A DNA stretch of 64,000 nt from Phreatobacter aquaticus (GTDB lineage: Bacteria; Pseudomonadota; Alphaproteobacteria; Rhizobiales; Phreatobacteraceae): positions 1,450,828-1,514,827 of the forward strand of contig NZ_CP039865.1 of NCBI RefSeq assembly GCF_005160265.1, given 5' to 3'. Position numbers and translations under genes: made by a program. Shown here in pieces: positions 22,403 to 29,272 of this stretch. How positions within the stretch are numbered: position 1 is the stretch's first letter; each line of letters starts with the position of its first letter. The notes under the pieces were generated by a model. The model was not told where the DNA came from. It was given only the letters and a program-made list of their open reading frames with translations, and made no database searches.

Positions 22403-22505
22403 GTCACCTTCCTTGATCAACAGACGCCAGGCGCGGGTCGCTCACCCAGCTGGCGGAATTATCATTGTCTTCGTCATGCTCTCATGACACCAAATTGCGA
22501 GCGCT

Positions 22506-22550
22506 GCAATCTGGAATGCAAATCATTCGCATTTGCATGTAACCCATTGC
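22506..22550. promoter_or_regulatory. Nested dyad, Fur/Mur-box-like, between porin and RND operon
   Basis: A perfect inverted repeat ATGCAAAT-N7-ATTTGCAT at 22516-22538 sits inside a second pair, GCAAT (22506-22510) and ATTGC (22546-22550), with almost the same centre. TGCAAA/TTTGCA dyads of this type are known for Fur/Mur-family regulators in alphaproteobacteria. It is AT-rich against its surroundings and placed about 104 bp before the porin start and 128 bp before the adaptor start, so it could serve both. Confidence 0.6.
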
Positions 22551-22666
22551 GCCTGACCAGCCGCCCACCGGGAGGCAATGTCAGCATTTCGCCAGCCATG
22601 TTCTGTTTCAAGAACAGTCTCCCCCGGAACCGGTCCGGGGCGTGGACCGTCAGTTTCGGACATCTC

Positions 22667-23971
22667 ATGCTTCTGAGTGAACACATCCGGGCCAAGCGGT
22701 CGCGGCGCGCCGCCCGACGCCTGATGTCCCTTGTCCTGGCCACCATGGTCGGGCTGCCGCTCGTGTCCGAGCCGGCGCGCGCATCCGGATTCGGCCTGTC
22801 CTCGATCACCGGCTTTTTCTCGGGCTGGTTCGCCGGACCCACCGCGCCGCCGGCTGTCCCGGAGAGCCGCGTCACGCCGCGCGACGGCCGCTTCGTCGTC
22901 AGCGAGGCCGACTGGCAGACGTTTGAACGCAAGCCTGTGGCATCGGTGCGCTTCCGCGAGCTTGTCCAGACCGAAGGTCGGCTCGCCATCGACGAGAACA
23001 GCGCAACCTCGGTCATTTCGCCCTATTCGGGCCGCACGCTGCGCATCGCGGTTGTTCCCGGCGATGTCGTGACCAAGGGACAGCCGCTCCTGTTCCTGGA
23101 GGCCAACGACATGGTCCAGGCCCAGAACGATTTCGTCGCCGCGCTCTCAGCGCTCGACAAGTCGGTCGCCCAGATGCGGCTCGCCGAGATCAACGACCGG
23201 CGCCAGCGTGACCTGTTCGCGGGCCGTGCCACCACCCAGCGCGATGTCGACCAGGCCCGCGCCGATCTGGACGCGGCCCGTGCCGACAACCGCACGGCGA
23301 CCACAGCGCTGGAGGCCGTGGAGAACCGCCTCCATCTGTTCGGCAAGACCGATGATGACATTGCGCGGTTCCGCGCCGGCCGGCGCATCGATCCGCAGGT
23401 GGCGCTGCTCTCGCCCATCGAGGGCGTGGTGGTGTCGCGCAAGGTTGGTCCGGGCCAGTTCCTCACCGGCGGCGCCGGCGAACCGATCTTCGTCATCGAC
23501 GATCTCGAGACCCTGTGGCTCAACGCCTATGTCCGCGAGGACGAGGCGCCGCGCATTGCCCGCGGGGCGCCGCTGGAGTTCCGTGTCCTGGCTTTCGGCG
23601 ACCGCGTGTTCACCGGCCGCATCGACTTCATCGCGCCGACCATCGATGCCGCCAACCGTCGTCTGCTGGTGCGCGCAACCGTCGACAATCCCGGCCTCGT
23701 GCTGAAGCAGCAGATGTTCGCCAATGTCGAGATCCAGGTCGGCGAGCCGATTGAATCCCCGTCTATCGCGCGCAACGCCATCATCTACGAAGGCGATGTC
23801 GCGCGTGTCTGGGTCGCCCATCCCGACCGGGCCGTCGAACTCCGGCGGGTCAAGGTCGGCCTGATCCGTGGCGACAAGGTGCAGATCCTCGAGGGATTGA
23901 AGGTCGGCGAGGAGGTCGTGGTGCGCGGCGCGCTGTTCGTCGACCAGATGACCGCCGCGTTCCGGCGCTGA
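22667..23971 (+). CDS. RND efflux periplasmic adaptor (membrane fusion protein)
   Basis: About 434 residues from ATG 22667; the open frame runs further upstream through the promoter region, and that part is unlikely to be coding. An Arg-rich start and a hydrophobic segment L-M-S-L-V-L-A-T-M-V-G-L-P form the signal or anchor. Then a barrel-sandwich (V-I-S-P-Y-S-G-R-T-L-R-I-A-V-V-P-G-D-V-V near residue 125), an alpha-hairpin with Arg/Asp/Gln-rich coiled coil, L-L-S-P-I-E-G-V-V-V-S-R, and a beta-barrel. It links the inner-membrane pump to an outer-membrane channel. The pump gene follows after 16 bp. CzcB-like class is likely. Confidence 0.88.
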   Translation: MLLSEHIRAKRSRRAARRLMSLVLATMVGLPLVSEPARASGFGLSSITGFFSGWFAGPTAPPAVPESRVTPRDGRFVVSEADWQTFERKPVASVRFRELVQTEGRLAIDENSATSVISPYSGRTLRIAVVPGDVVTKGQPLLFLEANDMVQAQNDFVAALSALDKSVAQMRLAEINDRRQRDLFAGRATTQRDVDQARADLDAARADNRTATTALEAVENRLHLFGKTDDDIARFRAGRRIDPQVALLSPIEGVVVSRKVGPGQFLTGGAGEPIFVIDDLETLWLNAYVREDEAPRIARGAPLEFRVLAFGDRVFTGRIDFIAPTIDAANRRLLVRATVDNPGLVLKQQMFANVEIQVGEPIESPSIARNAIIYEGDVARVWVAHPDRAVELRRVKVGLIRGDKVQILEGLKVGEEVVVRGALFVDQMTAAFRR

Positions 23972-23987: not shown

Positions 23988-26900
23988 ATGAACGCCATCA
24001 TCGAATTTGCCCTGCGCCAGCGCGTCCTGATGGTGCTCGCCTTCGGAGCGGTGTGCCTGATCGGTGCGCTTGCCTTCATGCGCCTCAATATCGAGGCCTA
24101 TCCCGATCCCGTGCCGCCGATGGTCAACGTGATCACCCAGGGGCGTGGGCTCTCTGCCGAGGAGATCGAGCGCTACATCACGATCCCGATCGAGGGCGTC
24201 ACCGCCGGCCTGCAGAACCTCCGGCTGATCCGCACGACGTCGGTTTTCGGCCTGTCGGACGTCAAGCTGCAGTTCACCTATGACGTGACCTATGAACTGG
24301 CGCTCCAGCGCGTGCTGAACCAGCTGTCGCTGCTGCCCGCCTTGCCGAACGGCGCCCAGCCGCAGATCTCGCCCATGTCGCCGATCGGCGAAATCTTCCG
24401 TTACCGCGTCGTCGGCCCGCCGGACTATTCCATCACCGACCTCAAGACGATCCAGACCTGGATCCTGCAGCGCCGGTTCCGCTCGATCCCGGGCGTGGTG
24501 GACGTGGTCGGCTGGGGCGGCAAGAACAAGACCTATGAGGTCTCGGTCGATTTCAACAAGCTGATTGCCTATGGCCTCACCCTGCCGCAGGTGATGACTG
24601 CGCTGCAGAACGCCAATCTCAACGTCGGCGGCAATACGGTGTCGATCGGCGTGCAGTCGGGCGTGGTGCGCGGTGTCGGCCTCATCTCGTCGATCGACGA
24701 CCTCAACAACACCTTCGTCGCCACCATCGGCGACCAGCCGGTGCGCGTGCGTGACATCGCCTCCGTCAGCATCGGTAACCAGCCGCGGCTCGGCATTGCC
24801 GGCCAGAACGATGACGACGACGTGGTGCAGGGCATCGTGCTGATGCGGCGTGGCGAGCAGTCCATGCCGACAATCCTGCGCGTCCAGGCCGAGGTGCAGC
24901 GCATCAACGAGGGCGGCGTGCTGCCGCCGGGTGTCCGCATCGAGCGCATCTACGACCGCAAGGAATTGATCGACGTCACCACCGGTACGGTGCTCCACAG
25001 CGCCATGTTCGGCATCACGCTGATCTTCTTCGTGCAATGGTTGTTCCTGGGCAATTTCCGCTGCGCCGTCGTGGTGGCCGCGACCATTCCCTTCGCGCTC
25101 GCCTTCGCCGTCATCTTGATGGTGATGCGCGGCGAATCCGCCAATCTCCTGTCGGTCGGCGCGATCGACTTCGGCCTGATCGTCGATGCCTCCGTCATCA
25201 TGACCGAGAACATCTTCCGATTGCTGGCGGAGCGAAGCCATCACAAGCAGGCCCATGATCTCCAGGAAGACGGCCGCACCGATCTGAAGCGCCGGCTTGA
25301 AACCATTCTCGGCGCCTCCAACCAGGTCGTTGTGGCGATCCTGTTCTCCTGCCTGATCATCGTGACGAGCTTCATCCCGCTCTTCACCATGCAGGGCGTG
25401 GAAGGCTACATCTTCGGCCCCATGGCCAAGACCTATGCCTATGCGCTGGCAGGCGGCCTGACGGCAGCCTTCTTCGTCACGCCGGCCTTCTCGGCCTTCC
25501 TGCTCAAGGGCAACCTGTCGGAGCGCGAGACGCCGATCGTCCGTGGCCTGCGCGCCGCCTATGAGCCGCTGCTGGAGAAGGCGGTCGGCCGTCGCGGCCT
25601 GACGTTGGTCTTCGCCGCGGCCCTGATGGTCGTCTCCGTCCTGGCCGGCCGCAGCCTCGGCCTCGAATTCCTGCCCAAGCTCGAAGAGGGCAATCTCTGG
25701 ATCCGCGCCACCCTCCATCCCACCATCTCGCTGGAGGAGGGCAACACCTACGCCAACCGCATCCGGCGGATCGTGGCCTCGTTCCCGGAGGTCGATTCGG
25801 TGGTGTCCCAGCAGGGTCGCACCGATGACGGCACCGAGGTCGCGGGCTTCAACAATGTGGAGATGTTCACGCCGCTGAAGCCGCGCGAGAAGTGGCGGCC
25901 GGGCGTCGACAAGGCGAAGCTGGTCGAGGAGATCCTGGCGGCCTTGCAGAAGGAGTTTCCGGGCGTCGACTTCAACTTCTCGCAATATCTCGAGGACAAC
26001 GTCTCGGAGGCAGCCTCCGGGGTGAAGGGTGAGAATGCCATCAAGCTGTTCGGCAACGACCTCGCTCAGGTTACCGATTACGCCGAACGCATCCGCAAGA
26101 TCCTGGCGAGCGTCCGCGGCATCGACGATCTCGCCGTGTTCACCGTGCTCGGCCAGCCGACGGTCGCCATCACCATCGATCGCGAGGCGGCCGGTCGCTA
26201 TGGCCTGTCGCCAGGCGACATCAACACGGCGATCCGCACGGCGGTCGGCGGCGATACGCCGGGCGACTTCTTCGAGCCCAACAGCGACCGCCGGTTCCCG
26301 ATCATCGTGCGCCTCGCACCGGAATTCCGTCAGACCCCGGAGGCGATCCAGAACCTGCGCATCGGTGTCGCTGACAGCAATGGCACAGTCACCCAGATTC
26401 CGCTGAAACAGGTGGCGGCTGTCACGCTGGTCTCGGGCGCCTCCACCATCTATCGCGAACAGCAGCAGCGCTACATCCCCATCCGCTTCTCCGTGCGCGA
26501 CCGCGATCTCGGCTCGACCATTGCCGAGGCACAGTCGCGGGTGGCCAAGGAGATCCGGCTTCCGCCGGGGATGCGCATCGAATGGGCCGGCGAGTTCGAG
26601 AACCTGCTCGCGGCCATTGCCCGCCTCCAGGTCGTCGTGCCGATGACGCTTCTGCTCATCGCCTTCCTGCTCTTCGCCAATTTCAACTCGATGACCGATA
26701 CGCTTCTCGCCCTGTCGGTCATCCCACTCGCCATGGTGGGCGGCATCTTCGCGCTCTATCTGACCGGAACGCCCTTCGGCGTGTCGGGTGCCATCGGGTT
26801 CATCGCCTTGATCGGTGTGTCGGTGATGGAGGGCATCATCGTCATCACCTATTTCAACGGGCTGGTGCGGCAGGGCCGCGAGCGCGTCTCGGCGGCCATC

Positions 26901-27140
26901 GAATGCGGCAAGGTGCGCATGCGGCCGGTGATGATGACCTGTGTCGCGGCCTGCGTCGGCCTGACGCCGGCTGCGCTCTCCACCGGCATCGGCAGCCAGG
27001 TGCAGAAGCCGCTGGCCTTCGTGGTGGCGGGTGGTGTTCTGGTCGCCCCGTTCCTGATCCTGGTGATCCTGCCGGCGCTGATCGTCATGTTCTCGCGGCG
27101 CGAGGCGGCTGGTCCCGACGAGGAAGATGCGCTGAGCTGA
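23988..27140 (+). CDS. RND efflux pump, heavy-metal (CzcA/HME) type
   Basis: 1050 residues, twelve membrane segments with two large periplasmic loops. Transmembrane helix 4 has D394-F-G-L-I-V-D400 ... E407-N, which matches the proton/metal relay D402, D408 and E415 of CzcA, so I place it in the heavy-metal branch. N-terminus M-N-A-I-I-E-F-A-L-R-Q-R is typical. It would export divalent metal from periplasm or cytoplasm with proton flow. A multidrug role cannot be fully excluded, as the residues that choose the metal in TM4 are only partly diagnostic. It ends 30 bp before a palindromic repeat. Confidence 0.9.
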   Translation: MNAIIEFALRQRVLMVLAFGAVCLIGALAFMRLNIEAYPDPVPPMVNVITQGRGLSAEEIERYITIPIEGVTAGLQNLRLIRTTSVFGLSDVKLQFTYDVTYELALQRVLNQLSLLPALPNGAQPQISPMSPIGEIFRYRVVGPPDYSITDLKTIQTWILQRRFRSIPGVVDVVGWGGKNKTYEVSVDFNKLIAYGLTLPQVMTALQNANLNVGGNTVSIGVQSGVVRGVGLISSIDDLNNTFVATIGDQPVRVRDIASVSIGNQPRLGIAGQNDDDDVVQGIVLMRRGEQSMPTILRVQAEVQRINEGGVLPPGVRIERIYDRKELIDVTTGTVLHSAMFGITLIFFVQWLFLGNFRCAVVVAATIPFALAFAVILMVMRGESANLLSVGAIDFGLIVDASVIMTENIFRLLAERSHHKQAHDLQEDGRTDLKRRLETILGASNQVVVAILFSCLIIVTSFIPLFTMQGVEGYIFGPMAKTYAYALAGGLTAAFFVTPAFSAFLLKGNLSERETPIVRGLRAAYEPLLEKAVGRRGLTLVFAAALMVVSVLAGRSLGLEFLPKLEEGNLWIRATLHPTISLEEGNTYANRIRRIVASFPEVDSVVSQQGRTDDGTEVAGFNNVEMFTPLKPREKWRPGVDKAKLVEEILAALQKEFPGVDFNFSQYLEDNVSEAASGVKGENAIKLFGNDLAQVTDYAERIRKILASVRGIDDLAVFTVLGQPTVAITIDREAAGRYGLSPGDINTAIRTAVGGDTPGDFFEPNSDRRFPIIVRLAPEFRQTPEAIQNLRIGVADSNGTVTQIPLKQVAAVTLVSGASTIYREQQQRYIPIRFSVRDRDLGSTIAEAQSRVAKEIRLPPGMRIEWAGEFENLLAAIARLQVVVPMTLLLIAFLLFANFNSMTDTLLALSVIPLAMVGGIFALYLTGTPFGVSGAIGFIALIGVSVMEGIIVITYFNGLVRQGRERVSAAIECGKVRMRPVMMTCVAACVGLTPAALSTGIGSQVQKPLAFVVAGGVLVAPFLILVILPALIVMFSRREAAGPDEEDALS

Positions 27141-27449: not shown

Positions 27450-28925
27450 TTACCGGCTGCTCGGCGGCCGCGCAGGACCCGTCGGATTGCGCAGCTCACC
27501 CCACGCATCGCCGCGCACACCCCAGTCCGATTGCGGCGGGGCAGACGCAACCGGCGGCTGGCTCACACCAAGCCTCGGCAGCTCCAGCCGTCCTGTGGCG
27601 GCCAGAACGGTGTAGGAGGCGATCAAGCGGTCGCTCTGCGCCTGCAACAGGCGCGCGCGGGCGCTCACCGTATCCTGCTGGGCGTTGAGGAGTTCGGTCA
27701 GTGTGCGCAGCCCCGCCTCATATTGCTTGCGCACGCCATCGACCGTGACTTCCGCCGCGCGAACCTCGGCGGTGGCAGCGCGGATCGTGAAGGTGGCATT
27801 GTCGAGCGCCGCATGGCCGGCATAGGCCGCCGAGCGCGACTGCGCGCGGGCCCCGTCCAGCATGGCCTGCGCCTGACCCAGCAGTTCCCGGCTCTGGCGC
27901 ACCTGTGATTCCGGAGCTCCGCCCGAATAGAGCGGCACAGTGAGGCGCCCGATCACCTGCACGCTGTCGGTGCGACGCGTGGACGAATCGACATCGAGGT
28001 CGCGCGCGATCTGGCTCTGCACGCTCACCTGCGGCAGCATCTGGCCCTGGGCGACACGGATCGCCGATTCCGCGGCCCGCACCGTCGAAATGGCGGCGAG
28101 GACTGCTGGATTGCTCTCGCCCGCCACCTGACGCGAGGCCTCGCGGCTGCCCGGCAAGAGCTGGTCGACAGCGGGTACGACTGTCAGGCGCGCGGCGGGC
28201 GGGGCACCGACCAACCGCAGGAACCGGTCGCGGGCAACCGCGAGGTCGGTCTGCGTGGCGCTGAGGTCTGACAGGCCTCGGCTGAGGCGGGCTTCTGCCT
28301 GCGACACGTCGGTTGGCGTCGCGACGCCGGAGGCGAGCCGTGTGCGCGTGGTGTTGAGGGTTTCGGTCAGGAAGCCAACATTGCGTTGCTGAACTTCCAC
28401 GAGGGCCTGGCCCGTGAAGACGGCCAGATAGGTGGTCGCGACGTCGAGCATCACCGATTGCTCGATTGCCCGCATCTGCTCGCGCTGGGTGCCGACCTGC
28501 TGCTGGGCCTGCAATGTGGCGTTCTGGGTGCGCCATCCGTCGAACAGCGTCTGGGTGGCGGTCAGTGCGACACCGCGCTGATAGAGCGTCGAGCCGCCAG
28601 TCGTGTTCGGCGGCCCGCCAAGGATCGAGCGGGTTGCCAGCACGCCGGCATAGGTCGTGGCGCTGACCTGCGGCAACAGGCCGGCCCGCGCCTGCGGGAT
28701 CTGTTCCTGGGTGGCGCGCACCTGCGAGCGCTGCGCCCGGATGTCGGGATTGAACTGAAAGGCCTGGCGAAGGGCCGCTGCGAGCGTTGCAACGCCATCA
28801 TGCGCGGGGCGCTGCACGGCGGGACGCCGGGACTGCCGACCCTCTGCCTGCGCCGCCCCCTGGCCTCCCATCAGCATGAGAGCGACCAGCGCTGCAGCTG
28901 TGAAAATCCCGGTTGGCAGGCGCAT
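27450..28925 (-). CDS. TolC-family outer-membrane channel protein
   Basis: About 491 residues from ATG 28925, with signal peptide ending G-A-A-Q-A. Two OEP repeats, each with long coiled-coil helices: first A-A-A-L-R-Q-A-F-Q-F-N-P-D-I near 60, then many heptad-like Q/A/L stretches, T-L-F-D-G-W-R-T-Q-N near 140, and V-P-L-Y-S-G-G-A-P-E-S near 335; a Pro-rich tail ends the protein. It would form the trimeric exit duct for an RND or type I system. It faces the RND adaptor and pump genes across one palindromic repeat and is the natural third part, though on the other strand. An alternative start ATG lies at 28970. Confidence 0.87.
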   Translation of the reverse strand: MRLPTGIFTAAALVALMLMGGQGAAQAEGRQSRRPAVQRPAHDGVATLAAALRQAFQFNPDIRAQRSQVRATQEQIPQARAGLLPQVSATTYAGVLATRSILGGPPNTTGGSTLYQRGVALTATQTLFDGWRTQNATLQAQQQVGTQREQMRAIEQSVMLDVATTYLAVFTGQALVEVQQRNVGFLTETLNTTRTRLASGVATPTDVSQAEARLSRGLSDLSATQTDLAVARDRFLRLVGAPPAARLTVVPAVDQLLPGSREASRQVAGESNPAVLAAISTVRAAESAIRVAQGQMLPQVSVQSQIARDLDVDSSTRRTDSVQVIGRLTVPLYSGGAPESQVRQSRELLGQAQAMLDGARAQSRSAAYAGHAALDNATFTIRAATAEVRAAEVTVDGVRKQYEAGLRTLTELLNAQQDTVSARARLLQAQSDRLIASYTVLAATGRLELPRLGVSQPPVASAPPQSDWGVRGDAWGELRNPTGPARPPSSR

Positions 28926-29272
28926 GGCTATGGTCAGACGGACAATCGGGCACGCCGCGGGCAACAGCATGCGATTACCGTTCCGGCTCTCCGTCCTGTC
29001 TGTGCCTGTGAACACCATGCCGGCCGCCGTCGCGCCCCATGCCCGAAGATCAACCTCAAGGCGTCGGGCCGACCCTTCCAATCGCTCATCCTGCCGCGTG
29101 GATGCCGGTACACGTCCGGCGCCCATCGAATTCGCGGCTATCTATGGATGGTCCACAATGACATCACCCTGACAGGCTGCGAATGGCCCGATGGCGCCGT
29201 CCGGCCGCCAGCCGGACGGTCAAGCGTACTGGACCATCCGGCCGGCCCGGAAATCGGTGTGAAAGGCCAGTC
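28926..29272. other. 347-bp gap before the TolC-type gene
   Basis: No gene is seen. The gap holds the promoter side of the TolC-type gene and the downstream side of the VOC gene, with one clear hairpin (listed separately). No operator-like dyad similar to that of the RND operon was found in it. Confidence 0.5.
29197..29219 (-). terminator. Hairpin after the VOC gene
   Basis: CCGTCCGGC-CGCCA-GCCGGACGG, nine perfect pairs, 53 bp past the stop of the VOC gene. No strong U-run follows. Confidence 0.5.

Follow-up and report, generated by a model that had tools for sequence, protein, structure and literature searches.

The divergent porin-pump locus

The window analysed here is a 64,000-nt stretch (G000:C1:1450828-1514827) of a Phreatobacter genome that consists of a single contig of 4.97 Mb. 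Within it, a gene for an OprB-family porin and the genes of a heavy-metal RND pump diverge from a gap of 264 bp, and this gap holds a perfect 8-bp inverted repeat (Table 1), as the earlier note had stated. OprB porins form a family named for sugars. The porin of the window, which is present as a single copy in the genome, has a signal-peptide-like N-terminus, and GGAAGG precedes its ATG. The closest solved relative of the RND permease is ZneA (PDB 4k0e, 666 bits). For the TolC-family protein, the true start is probably internal to the listed ORF.

Table 1. Features of the porin-pump region and the candidate regulator
Feature	Position	Strand	Evidence and remarks
OprB-family porin, 456 aa	21032..22402, start 22402	-	PF04966 255 bits; PDB Porin B E 3e-17
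Predicted porin promoter ATGAGA-16-GATAAT	22458..22485	-	9/12 to consensus; prediction only
Perfect 8-bp inverted repeat ATGCAAAT-CATTCGC-ATTTGCAT	22516..22538	.	Arms 22516-22523 and 22531-22538; 7-bp spacer
Predicted Mur/Fur operator core, 7-1-7, 15 bp, TGCAAAT-C-ATTCGCA	22517..22531, centre 22524	.	PWM; own mntH; MgFur crystal operator
Third half-site TTTGCA	22532..22537	.	6 bp past inner half-site; pairs with half-site 1 into the 8-bp dyad
RND periplasmic adaptor (MFP; CzcB/CusB type)	22667..23971	+	PF16576, TIGR01730
CusA/CzcA-family heavy-metal RND permease	23988..27140	+	TIGR00914 891 bits
TolC-family outer-membrane efflux protein	27450..29126, ORF as listed	-	PF02321, TIGR01844; convergent to the pump genes
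Fur/Mur protein L001, 154 aa	G000:C1:1093190-1093543		Sole Fur/Mur protein of the genome

The sole predicted porin promoter ends 31 bp away from the predicted operator core, so that simple occlusion of this promoter is not evident. A riboswitch search of the region returned a single Rfam match, far under its cut-off. Additional palindromes (TGTTCT-GTTTCA-AGAACA, CCCCGGA-ACCGG-TCCGGGG and GTCATG-CTCT-CATGAC) are found at 22599-22649, close to where the pump genes start, and at 22473-22488, by the predicted porin promoter; they are possible operators of another regulator. Those near the pump start (22599-22616, 22622-22640 and 22631-22649) have no counterpart in the congeners G003 and G008.

Motif and anatomy of the dyad

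By itself, the palindrome is only mildly unusual, and its significance comes from the motif that it carries. If overlapping cases are counted separately, the window contains 57 inverted repeats with perfect 8-bp arms and a gap of no more than 12, and palindrome strength alone was rejected as proof on this ground. When the 264-bp gap between the genes is shuffled with dinucleotides preserved, an 8-bp inverted repeat arises in 90 of 2000 cases and an AT-rich one in 11 of 2000. A search for the two arms in their exact arrangement, allowing three mismatches at most, gave one match against 0.06 expected. A position weight matrix (PWM) was derived from 13 sites at mntH, a near-identical pair being represented by a single member. 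It gives the window site 26.0 bits, and nothing else in the 64 kb exceeds 8 bits. Phreatobacter had contributed two of these sites, one of them identical to the 15-mer of the window, and a new matrix was therefore built from the mntH operators of other genera. With this leave-genus-out matrix, the site still scores 25.6 bits against 8.1 for the runner-up in the 64 kb, and the number of such sites expected in the 264-bp region is ∼7e-7. No site of 13 bits or more occurs in a control of 132,446 bases from other loci, a set in which some loci had originally been chosen for a weak match to the arms.

The dyad was previously described as two nested pairs with a common centre, accommodating two dimers. 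This architecture has to be revised. The 7-1-7 core is the dimer unit, and the inner dyad combines half-sites 1 and 3. The outer pair, GCAAT (22506-22510) and ATTGC (22546-22550), is centred on 22528 and not on 22527. It was rejected as a second dimer site and is probably due to chance, being off-centre by 1 bp and of a kind (a 5-bp pair with its centre within 1 bp and at most 20 bp outside the arms) that appears in 8.2% of 5000 shuffles. The third half-site is better grounded. Among 28 sites not chosen for this feature, GCA is found at the corresponding offset on 11 of 56 sides, whereas no other offset exceeds 2 of 56; counted by site, 10 of the 28 show it on one side or both. In the window, the 7-1-7 site shifted by 6 bp from the strong first core is made of one good and one poor half. 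A second, offset Mur dimer may possibly occupy the third half-site, although no good second core supports it.

The core at manganese transport genes

In the 4.97 Mb of the genome, the strict core TGCAAATNATTCKCA has three occurrences, two of them at mntH and one at the porin. The promoter of mntH, an Nramp gene whose identity as mntH rests on NF001923, thus has two copies of the core, and the 15-mer of the window is found there in identical form. When the arms are searched with up to three mismatches, 41 places are retrieved, mostly at three mismatches, and the genes were examined at two of them (L004 and L005). The second-best match to the arms in the genome, one of four with two mismatches and the one inspected among these, lies in the promoter of this Nramp gene, mntH. 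A copy of the core is also carried by the irr promoter of the genome. Six further sites with two mismatches (L148-L153) have no evident metal gene adjoining.

The association with mntH extends to the order to which Phreatobacter belongs, Rhizobiales. From mntH genes collected in 101 genomes, 26 loci were taken; six of these, distant paralogues that lacked the marker motif, were set aside and 20 were examined. Within the upstream 420 bases, 14 of the 20 have the core at no more than two mismatches, one has a match with three mismatches and five have none. The mntH operator of the congener G007, ATGCAAATAATTCGCATTTGCAT, is the extended dyad of the window with one spacer base altered. Across 397 genomes, the extended-dyad pattern is found at eight sites, versus none for a reversed control, and these sites include mntH and two genes for Mn/metal ABC binding proteins. 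In the four genomes of genus g35, the box is present at every mntH.

Two other occurrences of the motif deserve mention. In g35 genomes (L145 and L146, from G177 and G199; L185), a near-perfect Mur box precedes the gene for a small, secreted, cupredoxin-like protein (158-168 aa, named by eye); this protein is a candidate for a new Mur target. In the congener G003 (L144, contig C22), an extended Mur dyad separates a Fur-family paralogue from a secreted oxidase-like gene (named by eye).

Candidate regulator and known operators

Three Fur-family genes are present in the genome: one Irr-like (by sequence), one Zur-like (nearest to NF008646, below cut-off) and one Fur/Mur, L001. The closest PDB entries to L001 are 5fd5/5fd6 (85/135 identical), which we take to be Rhizobium Mur, followed by MgFur of Magnetospirillum gryphiswaldense (4ray; 84/135, 62%). 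All ten metal ligands named for MgFur in the available text of PMC4506495 are kept in L001. Among the DNA-contact residues, Tyr56 and Arg57 are kept and Lys15 is replaced by Arg.

The same source, in the part available, reports that MgFur binds feoAB1 DNA as Fur-Mn2+ and that the crystal DNA TTAATTGCAAATCATTTGCAATTGC takes one Fur dimer. The window core has 14 of 15 bases in common with this crystal DNA and 13 of 15 with the native feoAB1 operator. The contexts differ, the MgFur site belonging to an iron importer and the window site to a porin beside a pump, with TTTGCA as a third half-site. Also related are the Mur boxes at mntH and sit genes of Rhizobiales and Rhodobacterales, including the one reported, in the accessible part of PMC6956336, for the Rhodobacter sitA promoter: the core and the third half-site of these mntH/sit boxes are the same as in the window. 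Their targets are inner-membrane importers, whereas that of the window is an outer-membrane porin. The Fur box of E. coli and P. aeruginosa, GATAATGATAATCATTATC, has a hexamer-hexamer-x-inverted hexamer layout, as does the minus strand of the window (GCAAAT-GCGAAT-G-ATTTGC). However, the window site has GCAAAT where that box has GATAAT, and its second dimer site, as read from the sequence, is much weaker. The available parts of PMC3751524 and PMC7762939 give no site sequence for comparison.

Outer-membrane proteins controlled with manganese importers have a precedent, in that MnoP of Bradyrhizobium is coregulated with mntH. The porin of the window, which is of OprB type, would resemble it as an outer-membrane protein for which coregulation with mntH is expected. 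At the sequence level, this OprB-family outer-membrane beta-barrel shares an identical operator core with mntH. MnoP itself is described as an outer-membrane Mn2+ channel in the accessible part of PMC9334652. In Anabaena, according to the portion of PMC9705863 available, expression of two genes of porin-like type increases when Mn is absent, and mutants of these genes are resistant to an excess of Mn, which makes passage of metal through porins plausible. Neither a Mur-controlled OprB porin nor a Phreatobacter case was found in a literature search from which subscription papers were mostly absent.

Conservation of the predicted operator at porins

In a search of 12 genomes of the genus, a box was found upstream of all four Phreatobacter porins, with scores of 26.0, 22.4, 17.0 and 19.0, despite differing neighbours. 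One of these, in G010, is located downstream of the pump cluster and has kept its own box. The comparison was extended to 17 named porin loci, three from Phreatobacter congeners and 14 from outside the genus, a box being defined by a score of at least 15 bits within 250 bases upstream. Boxes are found at the porins of L122, L123, L124, L127 (two boxes), L130 and L131; nine loci have none, and in L126 and L129 the upstream DNA is very short or missing. Outside Phreatobacter, this corresponds to 3 of 14 loci, in three further lineages, L126 and L129 being counted among the 14. In L127, the porin gene is divergent from a gene for a sitA-type metal-binding protein, with both boxes in between. In the Pseudolabrys-type loci L130-L132, a gene for an NMT1/THI5-like ABC-type binding protein (named by eye) follows the porin.

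Among 13 more distant porin loci (41-57% identity; L167 repeats L133), none has a box, including two with an adjacent mntH. In these two (L169, 5358-8236; L171, 5363-8291), mntH is directly upstream of the porin on the same strand with no recognised Mur box, so that another regulator may be at work.

A second type of outer-membrane protein is concerned. A DUF6662-like protein (304 aa in L020; loci L020 and L107-L117) has a box upstream in 8 of the 11 Phreatobacter genomes with a homologue and lacks it in three, namely the genome studied here, G003 and G008. In the present genome and in G003, the box is at an OprB porin beside the pump and not at the DUF6662-like gene; in G005, G010 and G011, both genes have boxes. 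One of the four g35 genomes has a box at its DUF6662-like homologue (L191), and in this group the box is not at an OprB porin. The DUF6662-like protein (∼300 aa) is a candidate for a MnoP-type channel, and the distribution of boxes between the two genes across genomes suggests interchangeable outer-membrane channels under Mur control.

A predicted Mur operator for the porin

The earlier proposal of a Fur-family (Mur) operator gains support from several sides: the matches at mntH, at sitA-type genes and at the irr promoter, the Fur-DNA crystal operator and the presence of a single Fur/Mur protein. Almost certainly, the palindrome is where Mur docks on the DNA. It is an operator of a known kind at a less usual target. 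Site, conservation, the core shared with mntH and the presence of the regulator make it probable that it serves the divergent OprB porin, with Mn-loaded Mur acting as repressor of a MnoP-like outer-membrane Mn2+ channel.

The following mechanism can be proposed. When Mn2+ is sufficient, a single dimer of Mn-loaded Mur would bind the core, perhaps touching the third half-site as well, and the porin would be repressed. When Mn2+ is scarce, Mur would leave the DNA and the porin would be made together with the Nramp importer MntH. The released porin, probably an entry channel for Mn2+, would then let the ion pass the outer membrane, a role comparable with that of MnoP in Bradyrhizobium.

The pump and other readings of the site

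The divergent layout also invites a bidirectional reading, in which Mur represses the porin and the ZneA-like RND pump together, and in which the pump, under Mn limitation, expels other divalent metals (Zn, Co, Cd) leaking in through the opened porin. Several observations agree with it. The box lies between divergent porin and pump here as well as in L130 and L131. The adjacency of porin and pump recurs, an adaptor or a permease being encoded in the porin flank in the window and in 7 of the 17 named loci (L122, L125 and L130-L134). In G003 (L071:3674-6757), a different OprB porin with two boxes, weakly similar to that of the window (23% over 206 residues), is directly upstream of the same adaptor-RND pump operon on the same strand. 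Nevertheless, over the 1.5 kb that precede the adaptor, the five congener pump loci (63-74% identity) are all without a box, which shows that the box follows the porin and not the pump. The same is true over 1.5 kb upstream in four more distant pump loci (L038, L039, L046 and L057), and the pump as a conserved target among congeners was consequently rejected. Moreover, the G003 pump keeps an upstream block (read by eye) common to G008, where no porin is present at this place, L132 is divergent but without a box, and in the window the site is 129 bp away from the start of the adaptor, a pump promoter not being recognisable beside it. Repression of both genes through one operator is therefore rather doubtful, and transcription of the pump most likely starts from a promoter of its own, without repression through this site. 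Shared control is kept as a reading in this genome because the region is divergent and the porin-pump adjacency recurs. Of the earlier suggestion that pump and porin answer to the same metal, the conserved box thus sustains the porin part, and the congener loci speak against the pump part.

For the predicted operator of the porin, the identity of the metal has also to be considered. With protein and site unchanged, the effector in vivo could be Fe2+, the operator then being one of Fur. Iron comes into question because irr also has a box, and because the feoAB1 promoter is bound by MgFur, a protein of identical DNA specificity (PMC4506495, part available). However, apart from the window site, the strict core is found in the genome at mntH alone, in two copies, and in relatives the boxes are found at mntH and sitA-type genes, which the porin family adjoins. 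Collectively, this makes iron an unlikely effector.

Control by Irr, Zur or an unrelated dimeric regulator is very improbable: the genome does encode Irr-like and Zur-like proteins, but the core matches sites of the Mur class and, compared by eye, is unlike the putative Irr site TTAGAAATATTCTAGA in the accessible part of PMC6956336. A palindrome arising by chance and devoid of function is hardly credible: 8-bp inverted repeats are frequent in the window and in shuffles of the region, but a motif match of this quality is practically never expected there, and orthologous porins again have the box in front of them.

Implications for manganese entry

Through its conserved operators, an OprB-type porin is added to the predicted Mur regulon. 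If the porin and the pump were after all repressed together, this would be a case of Fur-family-repressed efflux, with porin and pump as paired door and bouncer, and would account for their recurring adjacency. The recurrent pairing of a porin with a heavy-metal RND pump offers a concrete test of whether the uptake of one metal is coupled to the export of others. More broadly, the distribution of the boxes predicts that several unrelated outer-membrane proteins, of OprB types and DUF6662-like, may serve as interchangeable Mn2+ channels in Rhizobiales.
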